Shown: positions 21,418 through 36,610 of the stretch, in pieces
How the letters are laid out: every line of letters starts with the position of its first letter
Position numbering within the stretch: position 1 is the stretch's first letter
Source: Bacteroidales bacterium
Lineage (GTDB): Bacteria; Bacteroidota; Bacteroidia; Bacteroidales; UBA932
Direction: 5' to 3'
NCBI GenBank assembly: GCA_017509685.1
Contig: JAFWPA010000082.1
Span: 1-36,610 of the forward strand
DNA length: 36,610 nt
The notes under the pieces: model-generated
What the model saw: only the letters and a program-made list of their open reading frames with translations
What the model was told of the DNA's origin: nothing
Database searches by the model: none
Program-made: the position numbers and the translations under genes

Positions 21418-23271
21418 TTACTCGGCGATATCCCACCAGACGGGCAGGGTGCCGATTTGCTTGGAGGTGTACCAGACGTCTCCGGGGAGCGCCAGGGCAC
21501 CGGGCACCTTTTCGCCGATGGCAGCCAGGTTGGCGGTGTTGTACTTGAGCTCATAGGAGGCCTGGCCCCAGCGACGGGGATACTTGTCCAGGGGCAGGTA
21601 GTCCTGCAGGCCGGCCGTATTCAGGTAGTAGTAAGGCTTGGCGAAGTTGAAGAAGACCGCCGGGTCATAGTCGTAGCGGCGCATATCGTTCCACGCTTCC
21701 AAGGTGAGCAGATACAGGATCTGCTTCTGGGTCATGATCTTGCCAAGGGTAAGGTCTGCGGCCGTGCCGATACCGTTGTTCAGGAAGTTGTTGATGTCGG
21801 CGGCGGGCATGTCCGTAAAGGACGGGCACTCGGAGGTGGGGGCGCCGTACTGGTCCCTCCAGATCTTGAGGTAGCCGTTCATGAACTCGATATTGGCTTT
21901 GATGCCGTTCTTGTAGGCCTCGAAGGCTTCGGTTGTGGCGCCGTCGCGGTTGAACAGCACTTCGGCCTTGATCAGGCAGGCCTCGGCGTAGGAAGCCATC
22001 ACCGACGGGGAGTCGGCGCGCAGATGGAAGGCGCCGCTGATGGCCGATGCGTCGTTGTTGGCCTCGAAGCGCAGGAGTTCGTCGGTGGAGTTGCCGAAAT
22101 AGCCCACGGTTCCCACCACGTACACGGTGTCGCCCTGACGGTTGACAGGGTCCGTCACGGTCCATTTGCCGTTGGAGAAACTGATACTGTGGGCGGGGCC
22201 GTTATCCTTGAAGATGCTGGAAGTAAGGTCTACGCCCAGGGAGCGCATCCACTTGTTGTCGGCGGACCACTTGAGCGCGGCGGGAGAATCGGCGCTGCGG
22301 GTGGCGCGGCGCCAGGGGATAATCTTATCGGCCCGGGGGTCTTCCACGCCGTTGCCGGCGAAGTCGGTGAGGTTGTCATACAGCGCCTTGGACACCCAGT
22401 AGTGGCGGTTATTCTGGCCGATGCAGGAATGGACGCCGGAGTAGTTGACAGACTCTTTCCAGAGGAAATCCAGGGTAGAGCCCAGGGCGTTGACGTGCTT
22501 GATGACGGTGTCGTCCGAGTTGCTCTGAGGGCCCTTTGCCAGGCACGCCAGGATTTCGTCTACGTCGTACTTGCCGTCCTTGTAGCTGCCGGGCTGTTTC
22601 TTGCTCAGCTTGACCAGCCAGCGGGCTTTGAGCAAGTAGCACATCTTGATCCACTTGTCCACGTTGCCGCCGTTCCAGCTGTCGCCGGTGGCCAGGGGTT
22701 CGGCACCATCGGCCTGGGTTTTCCCGAAGAGTTCGATGGCCTCTTCCAATTCGTCAAGGCAGCCCTGGAACACCATGTCGCCGGTGTCATAATACGGGGC
22801 GGCCGAAGCACCGAGGGCGTCGGTATAGGGGATTTCGCCGAAAAGGTCTATCATCTCCATGAAACCGAAGGCACGCATGAGCTTGGCCGTAGCGGCATAA
22901 TGGTAGGCGCCGGCAGCCATAGCGTCATCGTACATACTGCGCAGGTTGGTGGCACAGCCGGTGAAGAACCACTGCTGGGCATTGCTGCCGCGATTGGCGG
23001 CGTTCATATCCCAGTTCATGGCGCCGTTGGTCTGGTTGTGCTTGGAAGCCAGCATCTGCGTATAATAGGCGGCATTGCTGCCGGGGATTTCCCACGTGTG
23101 CTCCAGATAGAACTGGCACCAGGGCAGGCGCTGGTAATAAGGAGCCTGCGCCGATGTGGCGGTATTGGGATTCTCGTTCACATCCAGCCACTTGTTGCAA
23201 GAACTTGCACCCAGGCAAAGCAGGGTGGCGGCCATTAAGAATGTAGCTATTCTGTTCATCGTCTTACGCAT
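21418..23271 (-). CDS. SusD/RagB-family surface lipoprotein (SusD-like_2 type)
   Basis: This 617-residue substrate-binding lipoprotein forms the lid of a SusCD uptake complex. The lipoprotein signal ends near GASSC (Cys25), followed by [15 protein letters not shown], a start typical of the SusD-like_2 group. TPR-like helices include [17 protein letters not shown] (about 435-452) and [16 protein letters not shown] (about 535-550), the conserved C-terminal SusD segments. The start is 2 bases after the SusC stop. A second ATG at residue 5 is possible. The ligand is unknown. Members of this group bind varied substrates, and the downstream phosphorylase points to nucleosides, which is inferred. 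Confidence 0.92.
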
Positions 23272-23273
23272 CT

Positions 23274-26200
23274 TTAGAACTTAAGGTTAACACCAAAACT
23301 CACACCGGCCAGTGCGGGTACGCAGCACCAGTCAATGCCCACGGAAGAGGAGCCGATGGATCCGGCGCCGGCCGCTGCCACCTCGGGATCACCGTAATAG
23401 TTGGTAAACAACAGGACGTTGTTGGCAGAGACCGTAAATACGCAACCCTTTACGAAGTTCTTGGTTCCATTGGCGAGAAGTTGCTGCGGCAGCGAATAGG
23501 ACAGGGAAATGCTGCGCAGACGCAGGGAGTTCACCTTGGTCATGAAATTGGCGCTTTCCTGCGGATAGAATGTCTGCCAGTAGTTGTTGATGATGTATTC
23601 TCCGCTCACGGTCTTGCTGTTGTACGGGTAGGTCTCACCAGCCCTGAAGGTCTTGGATACATCTTCGTAGCCCGTCACCTCACCCGTTTCATCCGTGATG
23701 GGACGAACGCCCGTGATGGTGAGTTCGCTGCGGTTCCCGGTCATCTTGGCGGTACCGGCCTTCACCATTTCGTAAAGCGTTCCATTGTACACGTCACCGC
23801 CGATGCGGAAGTCCCACAGCATATTGAACACGAAGTTCTTGTAGCGGAGGGTATTGTTCCAACCGCCGGACACCAGGGGCTCACGGTTGCCGATTTCGTA
23901 GGAAGTTTCGCCGTCGGACTCCGGCATGAAGTTGGCGTCCAGGATGACGCGGCCGTCCTCGGTGCGGTTCCACTTGGAACCGGAGATGGCCATGAAGTTG
24001 CCGCCGTTGAAGGAAGCGGCCTTGGCGTTGCCTACCTGAACGTCGGTCACATAGAGGATGTCCACGCCTTCCAGCAGGTTCTCTACGCGGCCGCGGTTGC
24101 CATACATGTTCAGCGTGCTTTCCCACGTGAAGTCGCGGGTTTCCACGGGACGTCCGCCGATGGAGAATTCGATACCCTTGTTGAGTACGTCACCGGCATT
24201 GACCGAACGAAGGATATAGCCCACCGTGTTGGAAAGACGCGGGCTCATGATCTGATTGTAGGAGTCGTTGGTATAGTAGGCGAAATCCAGATGCAGGCGG
24301 TTCTTGAAGAAGCTCAGTTCCAGGCCGATTTCGGTGGACTGGGTGATTTCCGGCATCAGGAACGGGTTACCGGCCTCCCAGTAGTCGCCCACGGCCACCT
24401 TGTTGCCCAGGTACACGCCCACGGGCCAGATGCTGGTATTGGTGATGTACGGGCTGGAATCCTTACCCACACGGGCCCAGGAAGCGCGGAGCTTACCATA
24501 GGACAGCACTTCGTCGTCCAGGATGTTCAGGTCCTGCAGGAGCTGGGTGAACACGAAGGAGCCGCTAACGGAAGGATAGAAGTAGCTGCGGTTCTCCAGC
24601 GGCAGGGTGGAAGACCAGTCGTTGCGGCCCGTGACCGTGAGGAAGACCGTATTCTTCCAGTCTGCCCGGAACTCTCCGTACACGCCCACAAGGCGCTTGG
24701 TGCTCTTGTAGTTGCTGAAGTTGCGCTCCGAATCCACGGCATTGTCAAAGGCATACAGGCCGGGAACCTGGAAGTTCCACGCCATACGCTTGTCGGTGAC
24801 TATACGTGTGTCGTCCGTGGCGGTACCTAGCAGGAGGTTGAAGTTGAAGTCGCCCAGGCTGTGGCTCATGTTGGACATGATGTTGGTGGACAGGTACTGG
24901 TAGCGTTTGTCGTTTTCGCTGTACATGCCCTGCTGCCAGGTTTTCTTGTTCACGCCGCCGGCGGCCAGGAGGTTGCTGTCGCTGGTGGTATAGGTGTCGA
25001 TACCCACGCGGGCGCCGATCCACCACCACTTGAAGATATCGGCCTTCACGTTGACGGAACCGGTGAAGCGGGAGGTCTTGTCCTGCATCTTGTTCTTGTT
25101 CAGGACCCAGTAGGGGTTGGACTTGTCTTCCCAGGGATCCAGACGGTCTGCGAACATACTGTAGCGGGTGCCGTCGTCATTCAGGTAGTGGGACATGTCC
25201 GAGGAAGGGGCCCAGGTGTAGATGCTGTGCATGGTACCCTGGCCGTTATTGCCGTAAAGGCCGCCCGAAGTGAGGGTTTTGTCGGTATGGGCCTGGGAAT
25301 AGGCGGAATTCACCGTGAAGGTGATGAACTTCCACCGCTGCTCTCCGTTGAAACGGAAGGTAGTCTTCTCATAACCCGTGGTGGGAATGACACCAGTCTG
25401 ACGGAAATGGGAGGCCGACAGGAAGAAGTTGCTGTTCTTGGTACCGCCGGAAACGGACAGGTTGTTATCCCAGGAATGGCCCTTCTGGAAGAAAGAGCCG
25501 ATATTGTCATAGAACTGGGTCCCGGCAGGTGCGGGAGCGCCCCAGGAAGCATAGGAAAAGTCGTTGTAGACTGTCTTGCTGTAGTCTCCGCTGGCTTCGT
25601 CGTAGATGTCTTCCACATAGCCCTGGAGATACTTGTTCTGGGTTTCCGGGAGCGCCGTTACCCAGGAGAGGGAATACTTGGTAGAGAAATTCACGTCCAC
25701 TACGCCCTCGTGGCCCTTCTTGGTGTTGATGATGACCACACCGGCCGACGCACGGGATCCGTACAGGGCCGATGCGGCAGGGCCCTTCAGGATGGACATG
25801 CTCTCGATATCCTCCGGATTGATATCCATCACGCGGTTGGAGGTGGTGGTGGCCGTATTCATGGAGCCGTCGAAGCCGGAATCTCCCAGAACACCTGACG
25901 AGTTATCGTAAATGATGCCGTCCACCACGAAAAGCGGCTGGTTGTCACGCTCCAGGGAGGTACCGCCGCGCAGGATGATCTGGGCACCGGCACCGGCCGA
26001 ACCGGAAGACTGGGTGATGGACACACCGGCCACCTTGCCCGCCAGGGAGTTGATGGCGTTGGTATTCTTGTTCAGCATCAGTTCGGTAGCACCGACTTCC
26101 TCAACGGCATAACCCAGGGACTTTTTCTCCTTGCGGATGCCCATAGCCGTCACCACGGATTCCTCCAGGAACAGGTTATCTTCGGCCAGGATGATGCGCA

Positions 26201-26465
26201 GGTTCACGCCCGCCTTTACTTCCTGGGTGGTGTAACCGATACAGGAAACTACCAGCACGGAACCGGCGGGAGCCTCCAGGGTGAAGGAGCCGTCGGAAGC
26301 CGTCATGGTTCCCGTGGAGCCGCCCTTAACGACAACAGTGGCGCCCGGCACGGCTAGCCCCTGCGCGTCCACTACGACGCCACTGGCATTCTGGCCCAAG
26401 GCTACTGCACTGACACCCAAAAACAGGAGGGTTGTCAGCAGGACAGACTGTATTTTTTTCAGCAT
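23274..26465 (-). CDS. SusC/RagA-family TonB-dependent outer-membrane transporter
   Basis: This 1063-residue outer-membrane transporter is driven by TonB and works with the following SusD-like lipoprotein. A signal peptide (1-24, cleavage after ALG) is followed by a carboxypeptidase-D regulatory-like domain (about 25-110, GVVVDAQGLAVPGATVVVKG). The plug is next, with VVTAMGIRKEKKSLGYAVEEV and AGVSITQSSGSAGAGAQIILRG and the SusC mark PLFVVDGIIYDNS. The 22-strand barrel runs to the C-terminus, which ends GVNLKF. Promoter and leader lie between this gene and divergent manA. No anti-sigma or hybrid regulator is adjacent, so control is unclear. Confidence 0.95.
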   Translation of the reverse strand: MLKKIQSVLLTTLLFLGVSAVALGQNASGVVVDAQGLAVPGATVVVKGGSTGTMTASDGSFTLEAPAGSVLVVSCIGYTTQEVKAGVNLRIILAEDNLFLEESVVTAMGIRKEKKSLGYAVEEVGATELMLNKNTNAINSLAGKVAGVSITQSSGSAGAGAQIILRGGTSLERDNQPLFVVDGIIYDNSSGVLGDSGFDGSMNTATTTSNRVMDINPEDIESMSILKGPAASALYGSRASAGVVIINTKKGHEGVVDVNFSTKYSLSWVTALPETQNKYLQGYVEDIYDEASGDYSKTVYNDFSYASWGAPAPAGTQFYDNIGSFFQKGHSWDNNLSVSGGTKNSNFFLSASHFRQTGVIPTTGYEKTTFRFNGEQRWKFITFTVNSAYSQAHTDKTLTSGGLYGNNGQGTMHSIYTWAPSSDMSHYLNDDGTRYSMFADRLDPWEDKSNPYWVLNKNKMQDKTSRFTGSVNVKADIFKWWWIGARVGIDTYTTSDSNLLAAGGVNKKTWQQGMYSENDKRYQYLSTNIMSNMSHSLGDFNFNLLLGTATDDTRIVTDKRMAWNFQVPGLYAFDNAVDSERNFSNYKSTKRLVGVYGEFRADWKNTVFLTVTGRNDWSSTLPLENRSYFYPSVSGSFVFTQLLQDLNILDDEVLSYGKLRASWARVGKDSSPYITNTSIWPVGVYLGNKVAVGDYWEAGNPFLMPEITQSTEIGLELSFFKNRLHLDFAYYTNDSYNQIMSPRLSNTVGYILRSVNAGDVLNKGIEFSIGGRPVETRDFTWESTLNMYGNRGRVENLLEGVDILYVTDVQVGNAKAASFNGGNFMAISGSKWNRTEDGRVILDANFMPESDGETSYEIGNREPLVSGGWNNTLRYKNFVFNMLWDFRIGGDVYNGTLYEMVKAGTAKMTGNRSELTITGVRPITDETGEVTGYEDVSKTFRAGETYPYNSKTVSGEYIINNYWQTFYPQESANFMTKVNSLRLRSISLSYSLPQQLLANGTKNFVKGCVFTVSANNVLLFTNYYGDPEVAAAGAGSIGSSSVGIDWCCVPALAGVSFGVNLKF

Positions 26466-26502: not shown

Positions 26503-26533
26503 CAAATTTAGCACGAAGAATCGGATTGGACAA
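26503..26533 (-). promoter_or_regulatory. Promoter of the susC-susD-deoD operon
   Basis: On the minus strand, TTG (26531-26533), a 20-base spacer and a -7 TAAATTTG (26503-26510) lie 37 bases before the SusC ATG at 26465. Confidence 0.55.
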
Positions 26534-26543
26534 GGATTTTTTG

Positions 26544-26551
26544 TATATTTG
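26544..26551 (+). promoter_or_regulatory. -7 promoter element of manA
   Basis: TATATTTG ends 4 bases before ATG 26556, implying a leaderless or nearly leaderless mRNA. It overlaps the region of the divergent susC promoter. Confidence 0.5.
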
Positions 26552-26555
26552 TGGC

Positions 26556-27524
26556 ATGTATCCTCTGAAATTTCAGCCACTTTTGACCCCTTTCGTTTGG
26601 GGCGGGCAAAAAATCGCACCCTACAAGGGTATTGAATCCAAAGAAAAGAATATCGGCGAGAGCTGGGAGCTCTCCGGAGTGGAAGGACTGGTGAGCGTGG
26701 TGGCCAACGGTCCCCTGGCGGAAAAGACCATCACGGAACTGGTCAAAACGTATAAAGGACAGCTGGTGGGAGAGCACGTCTATGCCGCCACCGGAGACGA
26801 ATTCCCCCTGCTGTTCAAATTCATCGACGCCCTCCGGGACCTCTCCATCCAGGTACACCCTAACGATGCCCTGGCCGCGCAGTTGCACCCCGGTTCCCGC
26901 GGAAAAACGGAGATGTGGTACGTGATTGACGCCGAACCCGGCGCCAAGCTGTACAGCGGCCTCACCAAGTCCATCACCCCGGAGCAGCTGGCCACGATGG
27001 CCGCCGACGGCACCATCACGGACGTACTGGCCTGCTATGACGTAAAGCCCGGGGATGTCTTCTTCCTGCCCGCCGGCCGCATCCACGCCATCTGCAGCGG
27101 CTGCTTCATCGCAGAAATCCAGCAGACATCGGACCTCACCTACCGCATCTACGACTATGGGCGCATGGGCCTGGACGGCAAACCCCGCCAGCTGCACATC
27201 TCCCAGGCGCAGCAGGCCGTGGACTACAAGGTATACGACAACTACAGGACCGAATACGAACCCGTACCGGACGAAGAAGTAGAGCTGGTGAGCTGCCCCT
27301 ACTTCACCACCAGCGTCCTGGACCTCACACTCCCCTATGCCAAGGACCTCTCCGAACTGGACTCCTTCCTCACCGTGATGTGCCTGAGCGGCAACGGTAC
27401 CCTGGAAGTGGACGGCGAGGAAATAAGCATCGGCCAGGGTGAGACGGTACTCATCCCGGCCGACGCCGACGACGTCTGCTTCATCCCCGTGGAGCGAATG
27501 AAATTGTTAATCAGTCACTTATAG
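26556..27524 (+). CDS. manA: Mannose-6-phosphate isomerase, class I
   Basis: This 322-residue zinc enzyme interconverts mannose-6-phosphate and fructose-6-phosphate, linking mannose use and GDP-sugar synthesis to glycolysis. Metal-binding motifs are SIQVHPND (Gln and His ligands, about residues 90-97), KTEMWYVID (Glu ligand) and the active-site LPAGRIHAI (His ligand, about 175). A second cupin-like domain ends with QGETVLIPAD. The length matches the Bacillus-type ManA. The frame extends to 26526, but the -7 element lies within that extension, so ATG 26556 is used. It is a single-gene unit between two minus-strand transport operons, with a strong terminator after it. I see no direct functional tie to them. 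Confidence 0.93.
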   Translation: MYPLKFQPLLTPFVWGGQKIAPYKGIESKEKNIGESWELSGVEGLVSVVANGPLAEKTITELVKTYKGQLVGEHVYAATGDEFPLLFKFIDALRDLSIQVHPNDALAAQLHPGSRGKTEMWYVIDAEPGAKLYSGLTKSITPEQLATMAADGTITDVLACYDVKPGDVFFLPAGRIHAICSGCFIAEIQQTSDLTYRIYDYGRMGLDGKPRQLHISQAQQAVDYKVYDNYRTEYEPVPDEEVELVSCPYFTTSVLDLTLPYAKDLSELDSFLTVMCLSGNGTLEVDGEEISIGQGETVLIPADADDVCFIPVERMKLLISHL

Positions 27525-27580: not shown

Positions 27581-29590
27581 CTATTGCAGGCCACGGGCGC
27601 GCATCAGCGCGGAGGGATCGGGGCGGGAACCGCGGAACTGCAGATACAGGACCATGGGTTCTTCGCTGCCGCCCTTCTCCAGGAAGGTCTTGCGGAATGC
27701 ATTGGCGGTCTCCTTGTTGAAGATGCCGTCTTCCTTGAACTTCTCCCAGGCATCCACGGCCAGCACCTCGCTCCAGAGGTAGCTGTAGTAGCCGGCGCTG
27801 TAGCCGCTGGCGATGATGTGGTTGAAGTAGGAAGTGCGGTAACGGGGGATGATTTCGTCGATCAGACCCATCTCCCGGCAAACCTTGTCCTCGAAGCGGC
27901 GGATATCTTCCGGTCCTTCGAAGGCGGCCAGCTGGTCCACGGACAGTTCGTGCCATTTCATATCCAGGATGGATGCGGCGCAGGTTTCACCCGCGGCGAA
28001 GCCCTGGTTGAACTTGAGGGCTTTCTGGATTTTGTCTACCAGAGCCGCCGGGATGGGCTCTCCGGTATAGCAGTTATTAGCATAACCGGCCAGGATTTCC
28101 GGTACAAAGGCGAAGTTCTCGTTGAACTGGGAGAACATTTCCACGAAGTCGCGGGCCACGTTGGTACCGGACACGCTGGAATAGTTGCACTGGCTGAGGA
28201 AACCGTGCAGGGCGTGGCCGAACTCGTGGAAGGCAGTCTGCACATTGTCGATGGTGAGCAGGCTGGGCTGGGCGGCGGTGGGATCCGCGCCGGGGGCCGG
28301 GAAGTTGCACACGTTCACGATGATGGGACGTACGCCCTTGGACTGCTCCCGGAAGTTGTTCATCCAGGCGCCGCCCCGCTTGGTGGGACGCACATAGTAG
28401 TCGCGGTAGAAGATGCCGATGAGGCTGCCGTCGGGCTCGGTGAGTTTGTAGGCGCGCACCTCGGGGTTATACACCTCTACTTCCGGGGCTTCCTCGATGC
28501 AGATGCCGTAAATCTTCTCGGCGGCGGTAAACACGCCCTTGAGGACGCTGTCGGCCTGGAAATAAGGCTTGGTGACGTTCTCGTCCAGGGCATACTTCTG
28601 CGCACGCAGTTTCTCGGCATAGTACATCCAGTCCCAGGCCTCGATCTTGTGACCGGCAATCTTCTGCATTTCCTTCATCTGGGCCTTGGCGCTGCGCATG
28701 CAGGCGTCCATGATGGGCTGCAGGAAATGGTCTACCGTTGCGGGGTCTCCGGCCATCTTGTCGGACAGCTGGAAGGCGGCGAAGTTGGGATAGCCCAGCA
28801 GGCGGGCCATTTCGGCGCGCAGTTTCAGGACCTCCAGGACAATGTCGTTGGTATCGTTCTCATTGCCGTGATTGCCGCGGCTGGAGTAGGCCTTGAACAC
28901 TTCTTCGCGCTTGGCGCGGTCGTCACAGGAAGCCATGAAATCGTAGTACGCGCTCACGGTGATGCCGGTGGCCTCCTTGAAGGCGTTGTTCTCGGCCAGC
29001 AGCTTCTGGCCGAACTGCTGCGTAAGGGTGGCCAGGCGGTTGGAAATCTCGGCGAAACGCTTCTTTCCGGCTTCGTCCAGGCCCACGCCGTTGCGCTCGA
29101 AAGCCTGATACAGCTTCTTGGTGGCCATCTGCTGCTCGCGGGTGAGGCCGTCCTGGTTGTCATACACGGCTTTCACGCGGGCGAAGAGATCGGCGTTCAT
29201 CATAATCTCGTTGGAGGCGTCGGTGAGCAGAGGCGTCACTTCCTCCTCGATGGCCTGCATCTCGGGCGTGGAGTCGCTCTCGGCCAGGTTGAAGAAAACG
29301 CCCTGCACCTTGTCCAGGATGGGGCTGGCTTTTTCGAAGGCCAGGATGGTATTTTCAAAGGTGGGAGCCTCCTTGCAGTCGATGATGGCCTGGATATTGG
29401 CCTTTTCTTCCTCTATGCCGGCTTTAAAAGCGGGCATATACTGGTCCAGCGTGATCTGGGAGAAGGGAGCGGTACCGTAAGGGGTATCCCACTCCTGCAG
29501 GAAGATATTCTTGGGTTCGTTCTTACAGGCGCTTACAAGCATAAGCAAAGCCAGGCCCAAAGGCCTGGCAATTTTAAAGGTTCTTTTCAT
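27581..29590 (-). CDS. M3-family metallopeptidase (Dcp-like peptidyl-dipeptidase), lipoprotein
   Basis: This 669-residue zinc peptidase cuts short peptides, with Dcp-type members removing C-terminal dipeptides. A lipoprotein signal ends in LVSAC, so unlike E. coli Dcp it is probably periplasmic or surface-anchored. The zinc site is HEFGHALH, with the first His at about residue 455. The third ligand lies in ARDFVEMFSQFNENF about 26 residues on. The substrate-binding tyrosine region ASGYSAGYYSYLWSE is near the C-terminus. The start codon overlaps the stop of the DUF5689 gene by one base (TAATG), so it is the last gene of the nuclease/TonB operon. There it may clear peptides from nucleoprotein, or simply supply amino acids. 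Confidence 0.92.
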   Translation of the reverse strand: MKRTFKIARPLGLALLMLVSACKNEPKNIFLQEWDTPYGTAPFSQITLDQYMPAFKAGIEEEKANIQAIIDCKEAPTFENTILAFEKASPILDKVQGVFFNLAESDSTPEMQAIEEEVTPLLTDASNEIMMNADLFARVKAVYDNQDGLTREQQMATKKLYQAFERNGVGLDEAGKKRFAEISNRLATLTQQFGQKLLAENNAFKEATGITVSAYYDFMASCDDRAKREEVFKAYSSRGNHGNENDTNDIVLEVLKLRAEMARLLGYPNFAAFQLSDKMAGDPATVDHFLQPIMDACMRSAKAQMKEMQKIAGHKIEAWDWMYYAEKLRAQKYALDENVTKPYFQADSVLKGVFTAAEKIYGICIEEAPEVEVYNPEVRAYKLTEPDGSLIGIFYRDYYVRPTKRGGAWMNNFREQSKGVRPIIVNVCNFPAPGADPTAAQPSLLTIDNVQTAFHEFGHALHGFLSQCNYSSVSGTNVARDFVEMFSQFNENFAFVPEILAGYANNCYTGEPIPAALVDKIQKALKFNQGFAAGETCAASILDMKWHELSVDQLAAFEGPEDIRRFEDKVCREMGLIDEIIPRYRTSYFNHIIASGYSAGYYSYLWSEVLAVDAWEKFKEDGIFNKETANAFRKTFLEKGGSEEPMVLYLQFRGSRPDPSALMRARGLQ

Positions 29591-30750
29591 TAGTCAAACA
29601 CAACTGAAATGGAAGGATCGTCTACCAGGGAAATCTGAGCCGCACCGTTGTACAGGGTAACGATACCCGTGATGGTTACCGGCTGGTGGTCCAGGATGCC
29701 GGCGGCCAGCTGGGATGCCGCAAACTTGGCATAACCGCTGGTGCGCACCTGGATGGAGGTGGAGCCCAGGTTGAAGTAGTGCGAGATGTAGTTGGCGGCG
29801 GCGTACTTGATCATGATTTCCTTATAGGTAAGATAGGCGTCCGGGCCGAACTTGGCCGCCGTGTCGGCGTCCAGGTACTGGTTGGGCGTTCCCAGGATGG
29901 AACCGTAGCGGGTGGCACCGCTGCCTACCTCGGCCTCGTCCCAGCAACCGTCCTGCAGATAGCCGATATAGCCGTCCTTGGTGCAGGACCAGGTGGTCAC
30001 GCCCCAGGTACCCTTGTCGGAGAGGAACACACGGTTTTCCGGGTTGCCGCTCTTGTGGGCCATGTTGGAGTTGGGATAGAAGAGGGCGAAAATCTGGTCG
30101 CCGTACACGCAGCCCTTCAAGGAGACCACCTTGCCCCAGACGTTGTCCGAGCCACCGGCGGTGATGGCCTTTTTCAAGGCGTCCTCGGTGAGGGAAACGG
30201 GAGCGAAGGCAGTGTCCTGGAAGCCACGGAAGACATGACTTTCGATGATGGACTGCAGGTTGATGTAGGAGGTCTCGTACTCGTTGGTGGCGGTTTCATC
30301 GGCGGCCATACCCAGCTGGATCATACCGTTGTAGGCGCCCAGCGTGAGGCCCGTGCACTTCACGTACAGCCAGGTACCCACGGGATACTCGTTGTACAGG
30401 GAGCCTTTGCCCAACTTGAGGGAGATGGCGGCGCCGGAATTGGCGTCCTTACCGTCCTGGATATAGATTTCGTTGTAGATGTTACCGGACTGGTCGGAAG
30501 AAATCACCTTACCCTTGATCCAGATATTGCCCAGGATGGGAAGGGGCTTGTTCTTGTACATGGCCTTGAGGTCGGCGATGGCCGTAATCTCCTCCAGGCC
30601 CTGTTGCTCCTGAAGCTGCTCCTCGGTGTAAGGAACGGCCCAGGCGGCATCGGGCTGCTTTCCGGTGAACACGGGATCCCATTCTTCCTTCAGACTCTTG
30701 CAGGAAACGACGGCTGCCAGTGCAGCGATAGCGATAAAATACTTTTTCAT
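29590..30750 (-). CDS. DUF5689-domain OB-fold-like lipoprotein
   Basis: This 386-residue lipoprotein has a signal ending in VVSC (Cys17). Residues of about 50-150 match the DUF5689 pattern, an OB-fold-like unit with TAIADLKAMYKN, then GNIWIKGKVISSDQSGNIYNE, IYIQDGK and AISLKLG. A second beta-rich part with VTITGIVTLYNGAAQISLVD at the C-terminus looks like another OB-like module. OB folds often bind nucleic acid, but this has not been shown for DUF5689. The gene sits 5 bases after the TonB-dependent receptor, in the position a SusD lipoprotein would take. I infer that it is the surface-exposed binding partner of that receptor. Confidence 0.8.
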   Translation of the reverse strand: MKKYFIAIAALAAVVSCKSLKEEWDPVFTGKQPDAAWAVPYTEEQLQEQQGLEEITAIADLKAMYKNKPLPILGNIWIKGKVISSDQSGNIYNEIYIQDGKDANSGAAISLKLGKGSLYNEYPVGTWLYVKCTGLTLGAYNGMIQLGMAADETATNEYETSYINLQSIIESHVFRGFQDTAFAPVSLTEDALKKAITAGGSDNVWGKVVSLKGCVYGDQIFALFYPNSNMAHKSGNPENRVFLSDKGTWGVTTWSCTKDGYIGYLQDGCWDEAEVGSGATRYGSILGTPNQYLDADTAAKFGPDAYLTYKEIMIKYAAANYISHYFNLGSTSIQVRTSGYAKFAASQLAAGILDHQPVTITGIVTLYNGAAQISLVDDPSISVVFD

Positions 30751-30755
30751 GGCTC

Positions 30756-33671
30756 TTAGAATCTGAAGTAAATGTTAAGCATGTAGTTGGTACCTGCCAT
30801 ATAGAAGTACTTGGAGTCGAAGCGGTAGTAACGGCTCTTGGAAGCGGTGTTGTCCACCATACGGGTCTGTTCGTAACCGCCGGTCTTCACGTCCTTGTTG
30901 TTCAGGATGTTCTTCACGTTGAGGGAGAAACCAATCTGGTACTTGCGCTGGATGTACCAGCTCTTGCCCACGGAAATATTCACCAGCCACGCGGGTTTGA
31001 ACTTCTCCTGGGTGGTCATATAGATCACCTCTTCGTCGGTGATGGTGTTGTCCAGGCCGGCCACGGCGTAGTCCGTGCGGTACAGGGGATTCATATCCAG
31101 GTAGGCGCGGTCGAAGTACTCCACATCGGCGTCGATGAACCAGTAATTGTAGTTGTAGCTCAGGCCCAGGCTGGCAGCCGTCTGCGGCGTGGAAGGCACA
31201 TAGTGCTTCTGCCTCACGGTGCCGTCGGCGAGCACGGTCTTGGTCCAGTAAGGAACCAGGACGTTCTCCATCACGGTTTCGGCGCTGTTGTCCACGGTCT
31301 GGGTCATCGTAGGCGTAGAGGTGTAGACGTACTCACCCAGGGAGAGAACGCCCTGCAGACTCAGGTTGGGAACGATGTAGGTGGGAATCTTGAAGCCCAG
31401 TTCCACACCCATGTGACGCTCGTTGATACCGCTGATAGCAAAGTTGGAGAAGGCGTTCTGGAGGTCGTCGTAGGCGCTCATCACCTTGCTCTGGTCCCAG
31501 ATCTTGGTCCAGTAGGCGGTGGCGCGCACGTTGATGCCGCTGCCGCTGAACTGCCAGTTGATGTCGGAGGCAAAGGTCTTGGTGGTGGTGAGGTTGCTCA
31601 CCATGGAGTTGCGGGTACGGGGGCTCAGGAACACCTGGTTGAACTTGGGTGCATCGTTGAAGTAGCCCACGTTGGCGTACAGGCGCATATTGCCGCCGAT
31701 CACCAGGTTCAGGTTGGCCTTGCCGGCATAGGTGAAGAAGCGGGCTACCTTGGACTTGCCATAGGAGGTGGTCACGCTGCCGTCGGCCTCGTAGGTGGGT
31801 TCGATGGTCTCTCCGGTGAGCGGATCCACCATCTTGCTGCCGTTGGGAGCCAGGCCCGGGAACAGGCCCTTGCGAACCAGGCCTTCACGCCAGAAGCTCT
31901 CCAGGCCCGCACGGCCGGCGATGGTGGCGCTGAACGGACCGGCCACGAACTTGGCGCTGAGCCAGGCGTTGTAGTTGCGCACCTGGGCGTAGTAGTCGTA
32001 GCCGTATTTGTCGCCCACGTGCAACACCTCTGCGGAGCCGTTGATCAGGTAGTAATTGAGGTCATTCTGGGTCTTGTACGGAGAGGTGGAGAAGTCGCGC
32101 TCGGCAAAGTTGTCCACGTTCACGAAGTATTCGCCGCCCAGCAGATCGGCCAGTACCTTATAATATTCCGTCCGGTTGATGCGGGCGCTGAGGCCGCCGT
32201 TCAGGGTGACCACGTCGGAAGGACGGGCCTTGAAGGTGAAGGCCAGGTTCAGGTCCCGCTGGTCCACGCGGCGCTCTTCCTGCACATAGCGGGAACGGCC
32301 GGAGGACTGCATACGGTTGACGTTATACATACGGTCCCAGTCCAAATGGGTGAGGTTGGAATACATGTCGGAATAACGCCACTGGTTCAAGGCGGCCAGG
32401 TACTTGTCCGGGTTGTTGCGGTTCAAGTCCTCCACATACTCGCCGTTAATGGTGCCGTAATAGTAGCTGGGCAGATTGCGGTAGTAGTCCGGGCGGGGAT
32501 CCTGGGCGTCGTACCAATCAAGGGCGGTGTACCCGTTCTTGCCGAAGCGGTACAGCACGGTGGCGCTGCCTTCGAACTTGTCGGAAGGCTTGAAGTCCCA
32601 CTTGATGAGGGCGATGGGCTCGTGGGTCTTGCGCACGCGGGAGTTGCGTACACGGCCGTTCTGGTAACCCCAGTTGTCGTTATACATATTGTCTCCCATG
32701 AGGTCGTACACTTCCTGGGTGGAGGCGTTCTGTGCACCGCGCTCACCGGGCGTTCCGAAGAAGGCGAAATGCAGGGTGTTAGCGTGGTTCAGCACTTTGT
32801 CGGCCGCCAGGTAGTAAGCGAACGAACGGTAGTAAACGCCCTTGATCCAGTCGTTACCGCCCAGACGGGCGCTCACGTTGGCGGCGAAGGCCCAGCCGTT
32901 GTCCTGCAGACCGGTGGCGTAGGAAGCCATCACACGCAGACGGTACAGGGTGCTGTTGGTGAGCACGCTTCCGCGGAGGCCCTTGCGCACCTCACCGGCC
33001 GTACCGAAGATGTTGGTGAGGCCGTTGTAACCGCCGAAGCCAAAGTCGCTCATCTCGGAGCCGTTCACCGTCTCCTTGCTGCGCATGGCCTCGTTCAGGC
33101 CGCTCCACAGGGAGAAGGGGCTGTAGCCCGTGATGGCGTCGTTCAGCTTCACGCCGGCCAGATACACTTCCTGGCTCTCGGAGCTGTAACCGCGGGCGCG
33201 GAAACGCACGGAGGAGAAGTTGTATCCGGCAATGCTGTTGAACACGTCATTGCTGCCGAACAGGATGGTGGGGTTGTCGGAATAACCGCTGTCGTCCAGG
33301 TCGAAGGCTGCGAAGGAGTCGTCGTCCACCTCGGCCACCTGCGAAACGGCGGTAAGGGAGAGGTTGAACATGTTCTTCACATAGCCGTCGTTCACCGTCA
33401 CCTGCACCTGGCTCTCCAGGAACTCAGGTGCTTCGATGACCAGGGTGTACGAGCCGTCGGGCAGGGCGGGGATCAGGAAGGTACCGTCCTGAGCCGATGT
33501 GACCGAGGCAATCTCCGCAGCCCCCTGCATCAGCAGAAGGCGGGCGTTTTCCACCGGCTGGCGACCGTTGCGGTTGACCACCGTACCCTTCACGCCGCCG
33601 GTGGGCTCCTGCGCGAACAGGGCCACGGCACCGAGAAGGGCGGCAAATGCCAGAATAATTCGTTTAGTCAT
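30756..33671 (-). CDS. TonB-dependent outer-membrane receptor with CarboxypepD-like N-terminal domain
   Basis: This 971-residue receptor has a signal peptide (1-20, cleavage after LFA). A carboxypeptidase-regulatory-like domain (about 24-110: GGVKGTVVNRNGRQPVENARL) precedes a plug-like region (about 120-260). The latter contains FGSNDVFNSIAGYNFSSVRF and RARGYSSESQEVYLAGVKLND. The barrel follows to a C-terminal YMLNIYFRF. It is not a canonical SusC because the SusC plug marks and a SusD partner are absent. Instead it is followed by a DUF5689 lipoprotein and preceded by two nucleases. It is expected to import the products of those enzymes through TonB energy. Confidence 0.9.
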   Translation of the reverse strand: MTKRIILAFAALLGAVALFAQEPTGGVKGTVVNRNGRQPVENARLLLMQGAAEIASVTSAQDGTFLIPALPDGSYTLVIEAPEFLESQVQVTVNDGYVKNMFNLSLTAVSQVAEVDDDSFAAFDLDDSGYSDNPTILFGSNDVFNSIAGYNFSSVRFRARGYSSESQEVYLAGVKLNDAITGYSPFSLWSGLNEAMRSKETVNGSEMSDFGFGGYNGLTNIFGTAGEVRKGLRGSVLTNSTLYRLRVMASYATGLQDNGWAFAANVSARLGGNDWIKGVYYRSFAYYLAADKVLNHANTLHFAFFGTPGERGAQNASTQEVYDLMGDNMYNDNWGYQNGRVRNSRVRKTHEPIALIKWDFKPSDKFEGSATVLYRFGKNGYTALDWYDAQDPRPDYYRNLPSYYYGTINGEYVEDLNRNNPDKYLAALNQWRYSDMYSNLTHLDWDRMYNVNRMQSSGRSRYVQEERRVDQRDLNLAFTFKARPSDVVTLNGGLSARINRTEYYKVLADLLGGEYFVNVDNFAERDFSTSPYKTQNDLNYYLINGSAEVLHVGDKYGYDYYAQVRNYNAWLSAKFVAGPFSATIAGRAGLESFWREGLVRKGLFPGLAPNGSKMVDPLTGETIEPTYEADGSVTTSYGKSKVARFFTYAGKANLNLVIGGNMRLYANVGYFNDAPKFNQVFLSPRTRNSMVSNLTTTKTFASDINWQFSGSGINVRATAYWTKIWDQSKVMSAYDDLQNAFSNFAISGINERHMGVELGFKIPTYIVPNLSLQGVLSLGEYVYTSTPTMTQTVDNSAETVMENVLVPYWTKTVLADGTVRQKHYVPSTPQTAASLGLSYNYNYWFIDADVEYFDRAYLDMNPLYRTDYAVAGLDNTITDEEVIYMTTQEKFKPAWLVNISVGKSWYIQRKYQIGFSLNVKNILNNKDVKTGGYEQTRMVDNTASKSRYYRFDSKYFYMAGTNYMLNIYFRF

Positions 33672-33680
33672 ATGCGGGTT

Positions 33681-34769
33681 TTATTTTTTGATGACGATGT
33701 AGGTGGGATAGTGGTCCGAGAAACCACCGATGAAGGAACCATTGGAGAAGGTACGGAACGGGGTTCCCTTGTACTGACCGGTCTGGTTGGTCATATAAGG
33801 CTTGCTGAACACACGGCCGTAGTACTTACCCTTGACGATGGGCTGGATCTGGAAGGTTCCCGCGGGAGCGTTGGCAAGGGCGTTGTTCACCATCACGATG
33901 TCGAAGATATTGCCTTCGCCACGGTAGTACAGGGAACTGTAACCGGCCTTGATCATGCTCAGGAAGGGATCAAAGAAGTCCTGGTCGGTGGTTTCGGAGA
34001 TGAATTCCTTACCGTGCAGATACTCCATCATGGAAGGATCCGTGGGGTTGTCGTTCATATCGCCCATCACCACAATCTTGATACCGGGGAATTCCTTCTG
34101 GAGCTCCATGGCGCGGTTGTAGGCAATCTCGGCTCCGCGGGGGCGGAGGTCGGCGCCCTTGCCGCCCAGGCGGGACGGAAGGTGGCACACGAAGAAGGCG
34201 AACATTTCGCCGTCGATGGTGCCGCGGACCATGAGGACGTCACGGGTGCGGAAAGCGTCCTTCTCCTCCTGGCTCCACTCGCTCCAGTCGATTCGGGTGT
34301 TCTCGTCGAAGGTGAAAGGAATGGCCTCGCTGGTGATGTACTTGAAGATTTCGGGGCGGAAGAACAGGGCGCAGTCCACGCCGCGGCGGTCCGGGCTGTC
34401 GTAGTGGACAATCTGGTAGTGGGCCGGCGCAATGGCGGGCTCGGTCACCAGGTCCTCCAGGACGTGGCGGTTCTCTACCTCGGAAACGCCCAGGACGGCG
34501 TGCCAGGCACCGTTATCCTTGGCCATATCGGCAATCACCTTGGCCATGTTCTGCAGCTTCTTGGCATACTTGGCGTCGGTCCATTCGTTGGCGCCGTCCG
34601 GCAGATATTCGTAGTCGTTCTTGCCTTCGTCGTGATAGGTGTCGAACAGGTTCTCAAGGTTGTAGAAGCCAATCACATAGGATTTGCCTTTCACCTTCTT
34701 ACCCTGTGCGCCGGCGTTCCATCCGGAAACCAGCAGCAGCACGGCGAGCAGATATACGATTCGTTTCAT
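33681..34769 (-). CDS. Secreted endonuclease/exonuclease/phosphatase (EEP) superfamily enzyme
   Basis: This 362-residue metal-dependent phosphoesterase has a signal peptide (about 1-22, AGAQG), so it is exported. Superfamily motifs are in order: FYNLENLFD (35-43), EVEN with the metal-binding Glu (97-100), DRRG (127-130), FVCHLPSR (near 194), GDMNDNP (near 236) and the final GFSDHYP with the catalytic Asp-His (near 350). The family includes DNases, RNases and phosphodiesterases. The NLENLFD and DRRG subtype is common in Bacteroidota secreted nucleases. It lies 26 bases after the NUC1 gene and 9 before the TonB receptor. It may finish the breakdown begun by NUC1, as exonuclease or phosphatase. 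Confidence 0.9.
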   Translation of the reverse strand: MKRIVYLLAVLLLVSGWNAGAQGKKVKGKSYVIGFYNLENLFDTYHDEGKNDYEYLPDGANEWTDAKYAKKLQNMAKVIADMAKDNGAWHAVLGVSEVENRHVLEDLVTEPAIAPAHYQIVHYDSPDRRGVDCALFFRPEIFKYITSEAIPFTFDENTRIDWSEWSQEEKDAFRTRDVLMVRGTIDGEMFAFFVCHLPSRLGGKGADLRPRGAEIAYNRAMELQKEFPGIKIVVMGDMNDNPTDPSMMEYLHGKEFISETTDQDFFDPFLSMIKAGYSSLYYRGEGNIFDIVMVNNALANAPAGTFQIQPIVKGKYYGRVFSKPYMTNQTGQYKGTPFRTFSNGSFIGGFSDHYPTYIVIKK

Positions 34770-34795
34770 AATCCAGGTTATTTAGTGTCAGTTCA

Positions 34796-35965
34796 TTAAT
34801 TCCAGAATTGTGCGTTGGGTGCAGCGGCCTCGAGTTGTGCGGCCAGTTCCGGGGACCGCTTCTCCAGGTTGGGAAAGAAGTCAATGCCCGTCTGCGCCTC
34901 CAGCTCGTCGATGGACATACGGTAGCTGAGGCAGTTCGCTTCGGCAATTCCGTTGTCGTGCGGCAGGAGGAAGCCGGCCATCAGGTAGCCGTCCGTTTCC
35001 TTGGCGTAGGCCGATGTCCCCTTGTACAGCAAGGCCTTGAAGTAGTGGGTGGGAACCTTAACCCGGAAACCGGAAGAATTCCCGCTCACATTGGTGGACT
35101 TGTCGAAGAGGGCGCCGGTCACCACATACAGGGTGTCGGCCAGCGAAGCGTAATTGCGCACCTTCCCTTCCAGGTTGGCCCAGATGCCGCCGTTGAAGTA
35201 GTAGGCCTGAGGCGTCATATTGGTGGAAACGTAGGTGGACGCATTCTCCGCATAGTTCCGCTGTTTGTCGGCCGACGGAATCTGGTGTCCGCGGGTCCAG
35301 CCGCCGCCGTACGAACCATTGCGCAGGTCCGGCTGGATGTCGGCGGGCAGCAGCTTGTCGAAGCCCCAGGCTTCGGTGCGGCCCGTGCCGCTTCCCTTCA
35401 GGCTGTTATTCAGCGGATAGGCCACCCACAGGGACATATGGTCGTCGTAGTCCCAGTAGCAGCTCCAATTGCGGGTGCCGCTCTTGTCTTTGCCCATGTA
35501 CTTGCCGCCGTCCATGCTGTGTACCAGCACTTCCCTGCCGTCGCCTTCCACGCAGGCGGGCAGTTCCAGCCAGCCCATGGGAGCCACGTCATAGCCGTAG
35601 TTGCCGTCGACACCATCGGCCACACCGGCCTGGGTAATATCCACCCGGGCGGGCACGCCGGAAACCGGCTTCAGCACGATGGTGGCGCCGCGGTTCTCCT
35701 TGTGGGGATTGGCGTCGAAGCTGAGGATGGCGTTGTTCATACTGCCCGTTCCGCTTTCCGGCTTCACGCTGGCCCATTCTTCCGAGCCCGCGGGGAATTC
35801 GATGGAAAGCGTCCACGCACCGCTGGCCCTAACCGCAAAGAAGACGCCGTCGGCCGTAGCCGGCAGGTAATCGCTCCTTAGCTGGATGGCCACCTCGTCC
35901 TCCTTCTGGCAGCCCGTAAGGACCACCAGAAGGAACAAGGCGATAAGGGTCAGTTTTCTGGACAT
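34796..35965 (-). CDS. DNA/RNA non-specific endonuclease (NUC1) lipoprotein with BACON-like N-terminal domain
   Basis: This 389-residue lipoprotein has a signal ending in LTGC (Cys18). Residues of about 30-115 look like a BACON/Ig-like domain ending in VDITQAGV. The nuclease domain follows. GWTRGHQIPSADK holds the catalytic histidine of the beta-beta-alpha metal fold, with T where many members have D in DRGH. STNMTPQAYYFNGGIWANLE has the metal-binding Asn. YVVTGALFD and PTHYFKALLYK complete the family pattern. A TTG start four codons upstream (35977) is possible. ATG 35965 gives a standard signal. The enzyme would cut DNA and RNA at the cell surface, the first step of the operon's proposed pathway. 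Confidence 0.9.
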   Translation of the reverse strand: MSRKLTLIALFLLVVLTGCQKEDEVAIQLRSDYLPATADGVFFAVRASGAWTLSIEFPAGSEEWASVKPESGTGSMNNAILSFDANPHKENRGATIVLKPVSGVPARVDITQAGVADGVDGNYGYDVAPMGWLELPACVEGDGREVLVHSMDGGKYMGKDKSGTRNWSCYWDYDDHMSLWVAYPLNNSLKGSGTGRTEAWGFDKLLPADIQPDLRNGSYGGGWTRGHQIPSADKQRNYAENASTYVSTNMTPQAYYFNGGIWANLEGKVRNYASLADTLYVVTGALFDKSTNVSGNSSGFRVKVPTHYFKALLYKGTSAYAKETDGYLMAGFLLPHDNGIAEANCLSYRMSIDELEAQTGIDFFPNLEKRSPELAAQLEAAAPNAQFWN

Positions 35966-35977
35966 GTTCTTGTTCAA

Positions 35978-36610
35978 TTACTGCGCATTGACAGCAAACA
36001 ACGCAGCCCGCTTATTGGAGCCGGTGGTTTCTACTGTAATACTTGTAACGCCTGCCGTAAATGAAATCTCATATTTGTCGGTGTCCGTAACCGTGAGGGT
36101 GTAAGGAGAGGAATTGGCCAGGCCGGAATTGGCGGCAGGTTCCACAGAGCCCAGCTCTGTCTCACCGGACTTGAAGACCAGTTTGGACTGCTTGCCGCTC
36201 CATGACACGGCATAGAACGTAAGCTTGGTTGCGGTAGCCGGAACCGTAAGGGTGGCGTTGCCGATGGCAGAGCTGGTTCCCAGCTTCAGGACAGCAACGT
36301 CGGCCTCTTCATTGACAGTGGCTTTTTCGTCATAGGCTTTGGTGCCCAGCGTCCAAGTTACATTGGATGCAAAAGCAGAGGTTTCTCCACCGGGGGTGTC
36401 GCCACCACCGGGTTCATCGCCGCCGCCGGCGGGAACGATCTCGATGGCATCAAGCGTCCAGGCCTTGATCTGGCAAACATTGTTGTACTGGCAGATGGTG
36501 CCGGTTACGGTGAGCTTGTCACCCACCGCGCAGGTAGCGTTGCCGGCGCTGGAGAATACCACATAGGTATTGTCTCCGTCCTTCACGTTCACATTCTTGC
36601 CGCTCACACC
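35978..36610 (-). CDS. OB-fold-like secreted protein, C-terminal part (cut by the window edge)
   Basis: The last 210 residues of a protein whose start lies beyond base 36610. The visible N-terminal part (NTYVVFSSAGNATCAVGDKLTV... with VCQIKAWTLDAIEIV) has the strand pattern of an OB-fold domain similar to those linked with DUF5689. A Gly/Pro linker (GGGDEPGGGDTPGGE) follows. A C-terminal beta-sandwich then begins FASNVTWTLGTKAYDEKATV, a repeat domain seen in Bacteroidales surface lipoproteins. Twelve bases separate its stop from the NUC1 ATG, so it belongs to the nuclease operon. The function may be nucleic-acid binding; the missing N-terminus prevents a firmer call. Confidence 0.65.
   Translation of the reverse strand, partial: GVSGKNVNVKDGDNTYVVFSSAGNATCAVGDKLTVTGTICQYNNVCQIKAWTLDAIEIVPAGGGDEPGGGDTPGGETSAFASNVTWTLGTKAYDEKATVNEEADVAVLKLGTSSAIGNATLTVPATATKLTFYAVSWSGKQSKLVFKSGETELGSVEPAANSGLANSSPYTLTVTDTDKYEISFTAGVTSITVETTGSNKRAALFAVNAQ

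Follow-up and report, generated by a model that had tools for sequence, protein, structure and literature searches.

The window analysed here is the entire 36,610-nucleotide contig JAFWPA010000082.1 (C87) from a 79%-complete draft genome of a Bacteroidales bacterium (GCA_017509685.1). One of its ends carries six genes that a first-pass annotation had read as a candidate surface system for the capture, cutting and import of extracellular nucleic acid (Table 1). Gene calls and Pfam searches confirmed the positions, shared strand, protein families and tight spacing of all six: in the order of transcription, the intergenic gaps measure 0, 26, 9 and 5 bases and are followed by a 1-base overlap. Three of the genes, coding for a receptor, a DUF5689 lipoprotein and an exported EEP enzyme, form a core that recurs across Bacteroidia. 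Judging from sequences and structural models, the interpretation of the locus as a TonB uptake locus resembling a polysaccharide utilization locus (PUL), with nucleic acid as the putative cargo and a predicted OB-fold lid, is well supported. It also seems likely to us that this outer-membrane import system is nutritional in the present organism and that its core is shared with natural transformation in relatives.

Table 1 Genes of the locus, in the order of transcription
Product	Positions	Strand	Basis of the assignment	Status
C-terminal fragment of a BACON/OB-type surface protein	35978..36610	-	open 5' end at contig end	accessory
NUC1 (DNA/RNA non-specific endonuclease) lipoprotein with BACON	34796..35977	-	PF01223 9e-38	accessory, lineage-specific
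Exported EEP enzyme, signal peptide without lipobox	33681..34769	-	Exo_endo_phos_3 PF19580 1e-88	core
Receptor with predicted TonB-dependent-transporter fold and N-terminal CarboxypepD_reg	30756..33671	-	PF13620 2e-12 and model	core
DUF5689 lipoprotein, two predicted OB-fold domains	29590..30750	-	PF18942 1.5e-39 and model	core
M3 (Dcp-like) peptidase lipoprotein, HExxH intact	27581..29590	-	Peptidase_M3 PF01432 8e-122	accessory, lineage-specific

Since the window is a whole contig, its first gene is a fragment and the start of the operon lies outside the data. This fragment had no match above the Pfam cut-offs. A homologue in a relative (L033:4860-6317, 97 bits) carries a BACON domain, and among ten scanned first-gene homologues or upstream neighbours BACON was found in nine, DUF5689 in five and the OB model PF01336 in four. 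Profile searches of the window's genome recovered a single receptor match and a single DUF5689 gene. The closest named relatives, among the best 80, are mostly metagenome-assembled genomes of rumen and gut Bacteroidales, including Candidatus Cryptobacteroides.

Conservation of the core across Bacteroidia

The surroundings of the best receptor match were surveyed in 40 Bacteroidales genomes, taken from 136 with a receptor match, and in 20 genomes of other Bacteroidia. The class set was made up of 20 high-scoring and 20 low-scoring receptors from the listed class matches. Loci were picked by receptor score and contig room, independently of their neighbours, and those with too little flank were dropped from each count, hence the varying denominators. 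A DUF5689 gene follows the receptor on the same strand, within 250 bases, in 38/39 of the Bacteroidales loci and 18/20 of those from other Bacteroidia; a search for conservation of the gene order across Bacteroidota had been proposed as a check. An EEP gene is located upstream of the receptor, at a distance of no more than 800 bases, in 29/40 Bacteroidales (4 on the same strand, 25 divergent) and in 16/20 other Bacteroidia, every one divergent. Label-free clustering of the neighbour proteins at 60 loci retrieved the receptor at 60, DUF5689 at 58 and EEP at 48, the next family reaching 11. Because the linkage is conserved in diverse loci and emerges from label-free clustering, it exceeds what chance would give. 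The receptor-DUF5689-EEP core is deeply conserved across Bacteroidia.

The class members of the receptor family score above 700 bits with the receptor profile. In a tree of 80 of the 81 receptors (one shorter than 780 aa was omitted), the 60 family members, including that of the window, are split from the 20 lower-scoring receptors with 100% support in the Shimodaira-Hasegawa-like approximate likelihood ratio test. Near these sister receptors, the identical profiles detected neither DUF5689 (0/19) nor EEP (0/19).

The first-pass annotation had treated the six genes as one joint system, a view that is supported for the receptor, DUF5689 and EEP genes but not for NUC1 and the M3 peptidase. NUC1 was found upstream in 4/38 Bacteroidales and 0/18 other Bacteroidia, and the M3 peptidase downstream in 1/35 and 0/20, which excludes both as parts of the core; they are lineage-specific additions. 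Among the best 80 named relatives the order NUC1-EEP-receptor-DUF5689 is almost universal (NUC1 73/73, EEP 76/76, DUF5689 76/76) and the M3 peptidase is present in 54/74, but these loci are the closest kin and the near-perfect counts are therefore biased. The peptidase is accordingly not supported as a part of the system, and nothing was found that points to the suggested action on neutrophil traps.

Given the PUL-like gene order and the peptidase of the close relatives, the locus could be an ordinary SusCD-type locus for the utilisation of polysaccharides or peptides, in which the nucleases would be incidental. Like SusCD loci, it combines in a single operon a TonB-transporter, a surface lipoprotein gene just downstream of it and hydrolases of putative surface and periplasmic location. 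Nevertheless, its predicted lid is a double OB fold instead of SusD, its enzymes are nucleases, and the peptidase is not kept beyond close kin. None of the six genes is a SusD, a glycoside hydrolase or any other carbohydrate-active enzyme, which excludes the membership of these genes in a PUL, the operon start being outside the data. Moreover, SusC proteins are diverse in sequence according to their substrates, whereas this receptor is conserved over the whole order, with many invariant columns and a mean column identity of 40% (18 members). We regard an ordinary SusCD-type locus as very improbable.

Receptor, putative lid and nucleases

The predicted structure of the receptor shows a plug inside a 22-strand beta-barrel, that is, the fold of TonB-dependent transporters. 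The plug comes from the model only, as the Pfam Plug model PF07715 has no match in the receptor at E<=0.1, whereas it does match the window's own SusC. A search of PDB sequences with the receptor profile returned matches to the CarboxypepD-like domain plus a few weak others, and the same search with the DUF5689 profile returned nothing at E<=1. The model of the DUF5689 lipoprotein (predicted local distance difference test score, pLDDT, of 92) is a double OB fold whose top structural matches in the PDB are RPA, MCM10, CST and HIN-200. The earlier reading of an OB-like lipoprotein in the place of SusD is thus borne out by the model and by the position of the gene directly downstream of the receptor. 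The protein is predicted to be a surface lid or binder, and the fold suggests that the function of the DUF5689 family is that of a nucleic-acid-binding lid. The net charge of the whole proteins is acidic in the window's lineage; however, whole-protein charge does not discriminate, since the 20 sister receptors, with a median isoelectric point of 8.7, are no less basic than the family members from the class survey. The DUF5689 profile also passes its cut-off outside Bacteroidota, in the Bacillus subtilis control genome.

Conserved residues were counted only in copies longer than 70% of the corresponding window protein. The closest solved relatives of NUC1 are 2o3b and 1zm8 ("Nuclease"), known as NucA. 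Its His231, Asn253, Asn262 and Glu270 are each invariant in 80/80 sequences, so that the protein shares the invariant His, two Asn and Glu of NucA/EndA-type nucleases; unlike them, it is a BACON-bearing, putatively surface-exposed lipoprotein inside an import operon. The Asp of the DRGH motif is replaced by Thr in the window and occurs in just 33 of the 80 sequences. The listed start codon is TTG, but an in-frame ATG four codons further on gives a normal lipoprotein signal, and the lipobox Cys is followed by QKEDE; NUC1 is a probable surface nuclease. The EEP enzyme, for which a search of PDB sequences gave no match at 0.1, has invariant Glu97, Asp237, Asn239, Asp352 and His353 (125/125) and is probably periplasmic. 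The HExxH motif of the M3 peptidase is kept in 59/59.

The nature of the putative substrate is best indicated by the enzymes that adjoin the core elsewhere. Of ten further core neighbours that were scanned, four belong to nuclease families: an Endonuclease I with a type IX secretion system (T9SS) tail (L161); an Endonuclease I that replaces EEP directly upstream of the receptor, the EEP gene lying about 5 kb further away (L061); a PLD-like/DUF5689/T9SS protein (L154); and a second EEP with a T9SS tail (L156). Three others have T9SS tails and no named enzyme domain (L156 12160-13554, L070 and L065), and the rest comprise an M1 peptidase-like protein (L056), a lyase (L051) and a protein without matches (L037). 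All four named records with a receptor match in the plasmid collection have a nuclease. The order is receptor-DUF5689-DUF5689-Endonuclease I-EEP-EEP in Aureibacter tunicatorum and receptor-DUF5689-(453 aa)-NUC1-profile protein in Prevotella oral taxon 299. Flammeovirga kamogawensis has EEP-EEP-receptor-DUF5689/DUF6359, followed by a fusion of DUF5689 to a complete Endonuclease I domain (L206:11951-14146), and Bacteroides finegoldii has NUC1-profile protein-fimbrillin-receptor-DUF5689-EEP. The architecture, usually with nucleases, is found over Bacteroidales, other Bacteroidia and Cytophagales. That one receptor/lid core has been joined by several distinct nuclease families is the strongest argument for a nucleic-acid substrate, although a distant common fold may link NUC1 and Endonuclease I.

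Some further observations concern these records and the sister receptors. The B. finegoldii record (L204, NZ_OY725948.1) is circular, 27 kb long and typed as a non-mobilizable plasmid, which may correspond to a mobile form or to an assembly artefact; the protein named "fimbrillin" in it is the NUC1-profile match. Phocaeicola massiliensis and Persicobacter contain weaker receptor matches as well. Downstream of three sister receptors (L188, L190 and L192) lie T9SS-tailed Endonuclease I proteins (3/3 such neighbours scanned) of about 750 aa (L188:5092-7344, L190:11409-13670 and L192:11566-13791), one of them with a weak DUF5689 match. This may be a second pairing of nuclease and receptor.

EEP enzymes can act on lipids, and the locus could serve to scavenge phosphate from organic phosphodiesters in general, such as phospholipid head groups, teichoic acids and nucleotides. 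The available text of PMC8115612 describes such loci in Flavobacterium: the PusCD pair has a PUL-like layout, combines TonB transporters with phosphodiesterases, is induced by phosphate depletion and was suggested to scavenge phosphodiesters, including nucleic acids; the secreted Endonuclease I proteins EndA1 and EndA2 appear in the same phosphate-response table. Yet Pus loci have SusD-like lids and mixed phosphatases according to the same text, whereas the lid of the window is predicted to be a double OB fold. In addition, nuclease and EEP families account for most of the enzymes identified next to the core, even if most other clusters are unannotated and could include phosphatases. A general phosphodiester locus of this kind is in our opinion improbable.

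Nutrition and natural transformation

Based on the gene order, its conservation, the intact catalytic residues, the predicted folds and the association with nucleases, we infer a joint role in which the DUF5689 lipoprotein would bind extracellular nucleic acid at the surface while sitting as a lid on the receptor, and the receptor, powered by TonB, would draw strands or fragments into the periplasm. At the cell surface of the window's lineage, long DNA or RNA would be cut by the NUC1 lipoprotein, and the material that enters the periplasm would be processed there by the exported EEP enzyme. In the window's organism, one of the Candidatus Cryptobacteroides-like Bacteroidales, the main use is probably the scavenging of nucleotides, phosphate and carbon. 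Relatives such as Riemerella very likely employ the receptor/lid core for natural transformation too.

The latter point is suggested by a pair of genes from Riemerella anatipestifer. In the available text of PMC8459023, RA0C_RS04915 is a carboxypeptidase-regulatory-like outer-membrane protein and RA0C_RS04920, with DUF5689 and DUF5017, is encoded directly downstream in the same operon; markerless mutants showed each to be essential for natural transformation, and the authors speculated that both proteins bind and import DNA. That text reports homologues of RA0C_RS04915 from Flavobacteriaceae only. The window has the same arrangement, a CarboxypepD_reg outer-membrane-type protein directly followed by a DUF5689 protein, and the Aureibacter receptor bears the same product name as RA0C_RS04915. 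By analogy, we would place the Riemerella pair in the receptor/DUF5689 family of the window, the match being one of described architecture only. The two pairs do differ, as DUF5017 is absent from the window's protein, in which the Pfam scan matched DUF5689 only, and NUC1 or M3 neighbours go unmentioned in the available text of PMC8459023. Among relatives, DUF5017 is above cut-off in L054 and weak, under cut-off, in L159, L172, L203 and L046. Together with the conserved core and the varied adjoining nucleases, the Riemerella pair sustains the central idea of the first-pass annotation, namely the capture, cutting and TonB-type import of nucleic acid at the surface.

The same evidence could mean that natural transformation is the primary task of the module in Bacteroidota, with the module carrying out its outer-membrane step: DUF5689 would bind double-stranded DNA, the receptor would move it into the periplasm, EEP and NUC1 would nick or trim it, and one strand would be taken in by a ComEA-like HHH protein and ComEC. 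Pneumococcal EndA, a nuclease of the NUC1 family, acts in DNA uptake, and the window's genome encodes both DprA and HHH proteins. Besides the essential Riemerella pair, a tonBA mutant of this species had lowered transformation and no iron defect, an effect for which the authors suggested impaired nutrient transport as a cause (PMC8383284). On the other hand, the abstract of a study of F. johnsoniae states that it was not transformable under the conditions tested, and a surface endonuclease that shreds DNA would work against transformation. The endonuclease in the window's operon points towards nutrition as well.

The distribution of ComEC is also difficult to reconcile with a primary role in transformation. 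In the window's family, ComEC is only 365-375 aa long and lacks DUF4131 in 3/3 genomes (L193:1811-2938, L194:2226-3347 and L195:2081-3178), and in two of the three its profile match crosses a stop codon, whereas the ComEC of the other Bacteroidia scanned has 614-731 aa and DUF4131 (3/3). Most open frames in the order survey are close to 700 aa long, but some shorter ones also occur outside the window's family. The receptor was found at E<=1e-50 in 92 of the 198 genomes of the order, and ComEC went undetected in 10 of the 198. Seven of these ten keep the receptor (G002, G034, G050, G114, G124, G141 and G148), including 5/5 of those at least 90% complete. A second model, TIGR00360, likewise gave no ComEC above cut-off in these seven, its one sub-threshold match being in G148 (E 1.25). 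DprA is present in all of them, although the G114 match is a weak fragment that stays below the cut-off. Among the five most complete genomes, DUF5689 and EEP adjoin the receptor in G002, G050 and G124, as does DUF5689 in G034; in G148 the contig ends at this point. Looking for a ComEC gene near the receptor did not single out a Riemerella-like genome; the closest case in the 50- and 80-genome tables was G359, at about 26 kb. The receptor module thus appears to outlive ComEC, which fits an import for food, at least in ComEC-less lineages. For the window's organism nutrition probably comes first, and transformation would be a shared or derived use elsewhere; transformation as the primary role seems to us rather unlikely.

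Several observations weigh against or limit the import system favored here. The absence of ComEC may be due to assembly gaps. The predicted location of the proteins varies between relatives, since a simple lipobox pattern, in the best 80 named loci, is matched by 48/75 NUC1, 72/76 DUF5689, 52/58 M3 and 8/76 EEP proteins. Finally, in the class survey the Pfam DUF5689 model weakly matches a short distance downstream of at least 10 sister receptors, so that part of the sister clade has a diverged DUF5689 partner in common with the family.

Comparison with known uptake systems

The passage of DNA across the outer membrane of Bacteroidota is an open question, which this import system would address. 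According to the available text of PMC11532111 (2024), the mechanism of DNA import into the periplasm of Porphyromonas gingivalis is unclear and a conjugation pilus resembling type IV pili is not involved. In the open-licence literature searched, the Riemerella pair was the only published clue to this passage, DUF5689 was mentioned in a single paper and no nucleic-acid-eating Bacteroides locus was found. Nor was any later work on the Riemerella pair recognised among titles and abstracts, although earlier descriptions of either may exist elsewhere. If the import system is real, the Riemerella result, obtained in a single species, becomes a phylum-wide system open to testing, and gut Bacteroidales gain a PUL-like route for eating nucleic acid. 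We tentatively put forward a broader conjecture, in which receptor and DUF5689 would form a general outer-membrane nucleic-acid channel of Bacteroidota, a counterpart of the type IV pili of other Gram-negative bacteria. It would consist of a TonB-powered transporter that carries an OB-fold lid and has a nuclease of its own, and would supply nutrition or transformation depending on the retention of ComEC.

Other lidded transporters are less similar. The lid BtuG is a beta-propeller, and we know of no nucleases in the BtuB-BtuG system. This system, which takes up vitamin B12 in Bacteroides thetaiotaomicron (8bmx, 8blw), differs from that of the window in its small-molecule ligand and in the unrelated fold of its lid. 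The window itself has a SusC-like/SusD-like pair at 21418-26465, with Pfam matches to Plug PF07715 and PF12771, which was excluded as a part of the system; a plus-strand gene resembling mannose-6-phosphate isomerase (26526-27524) intervenes.

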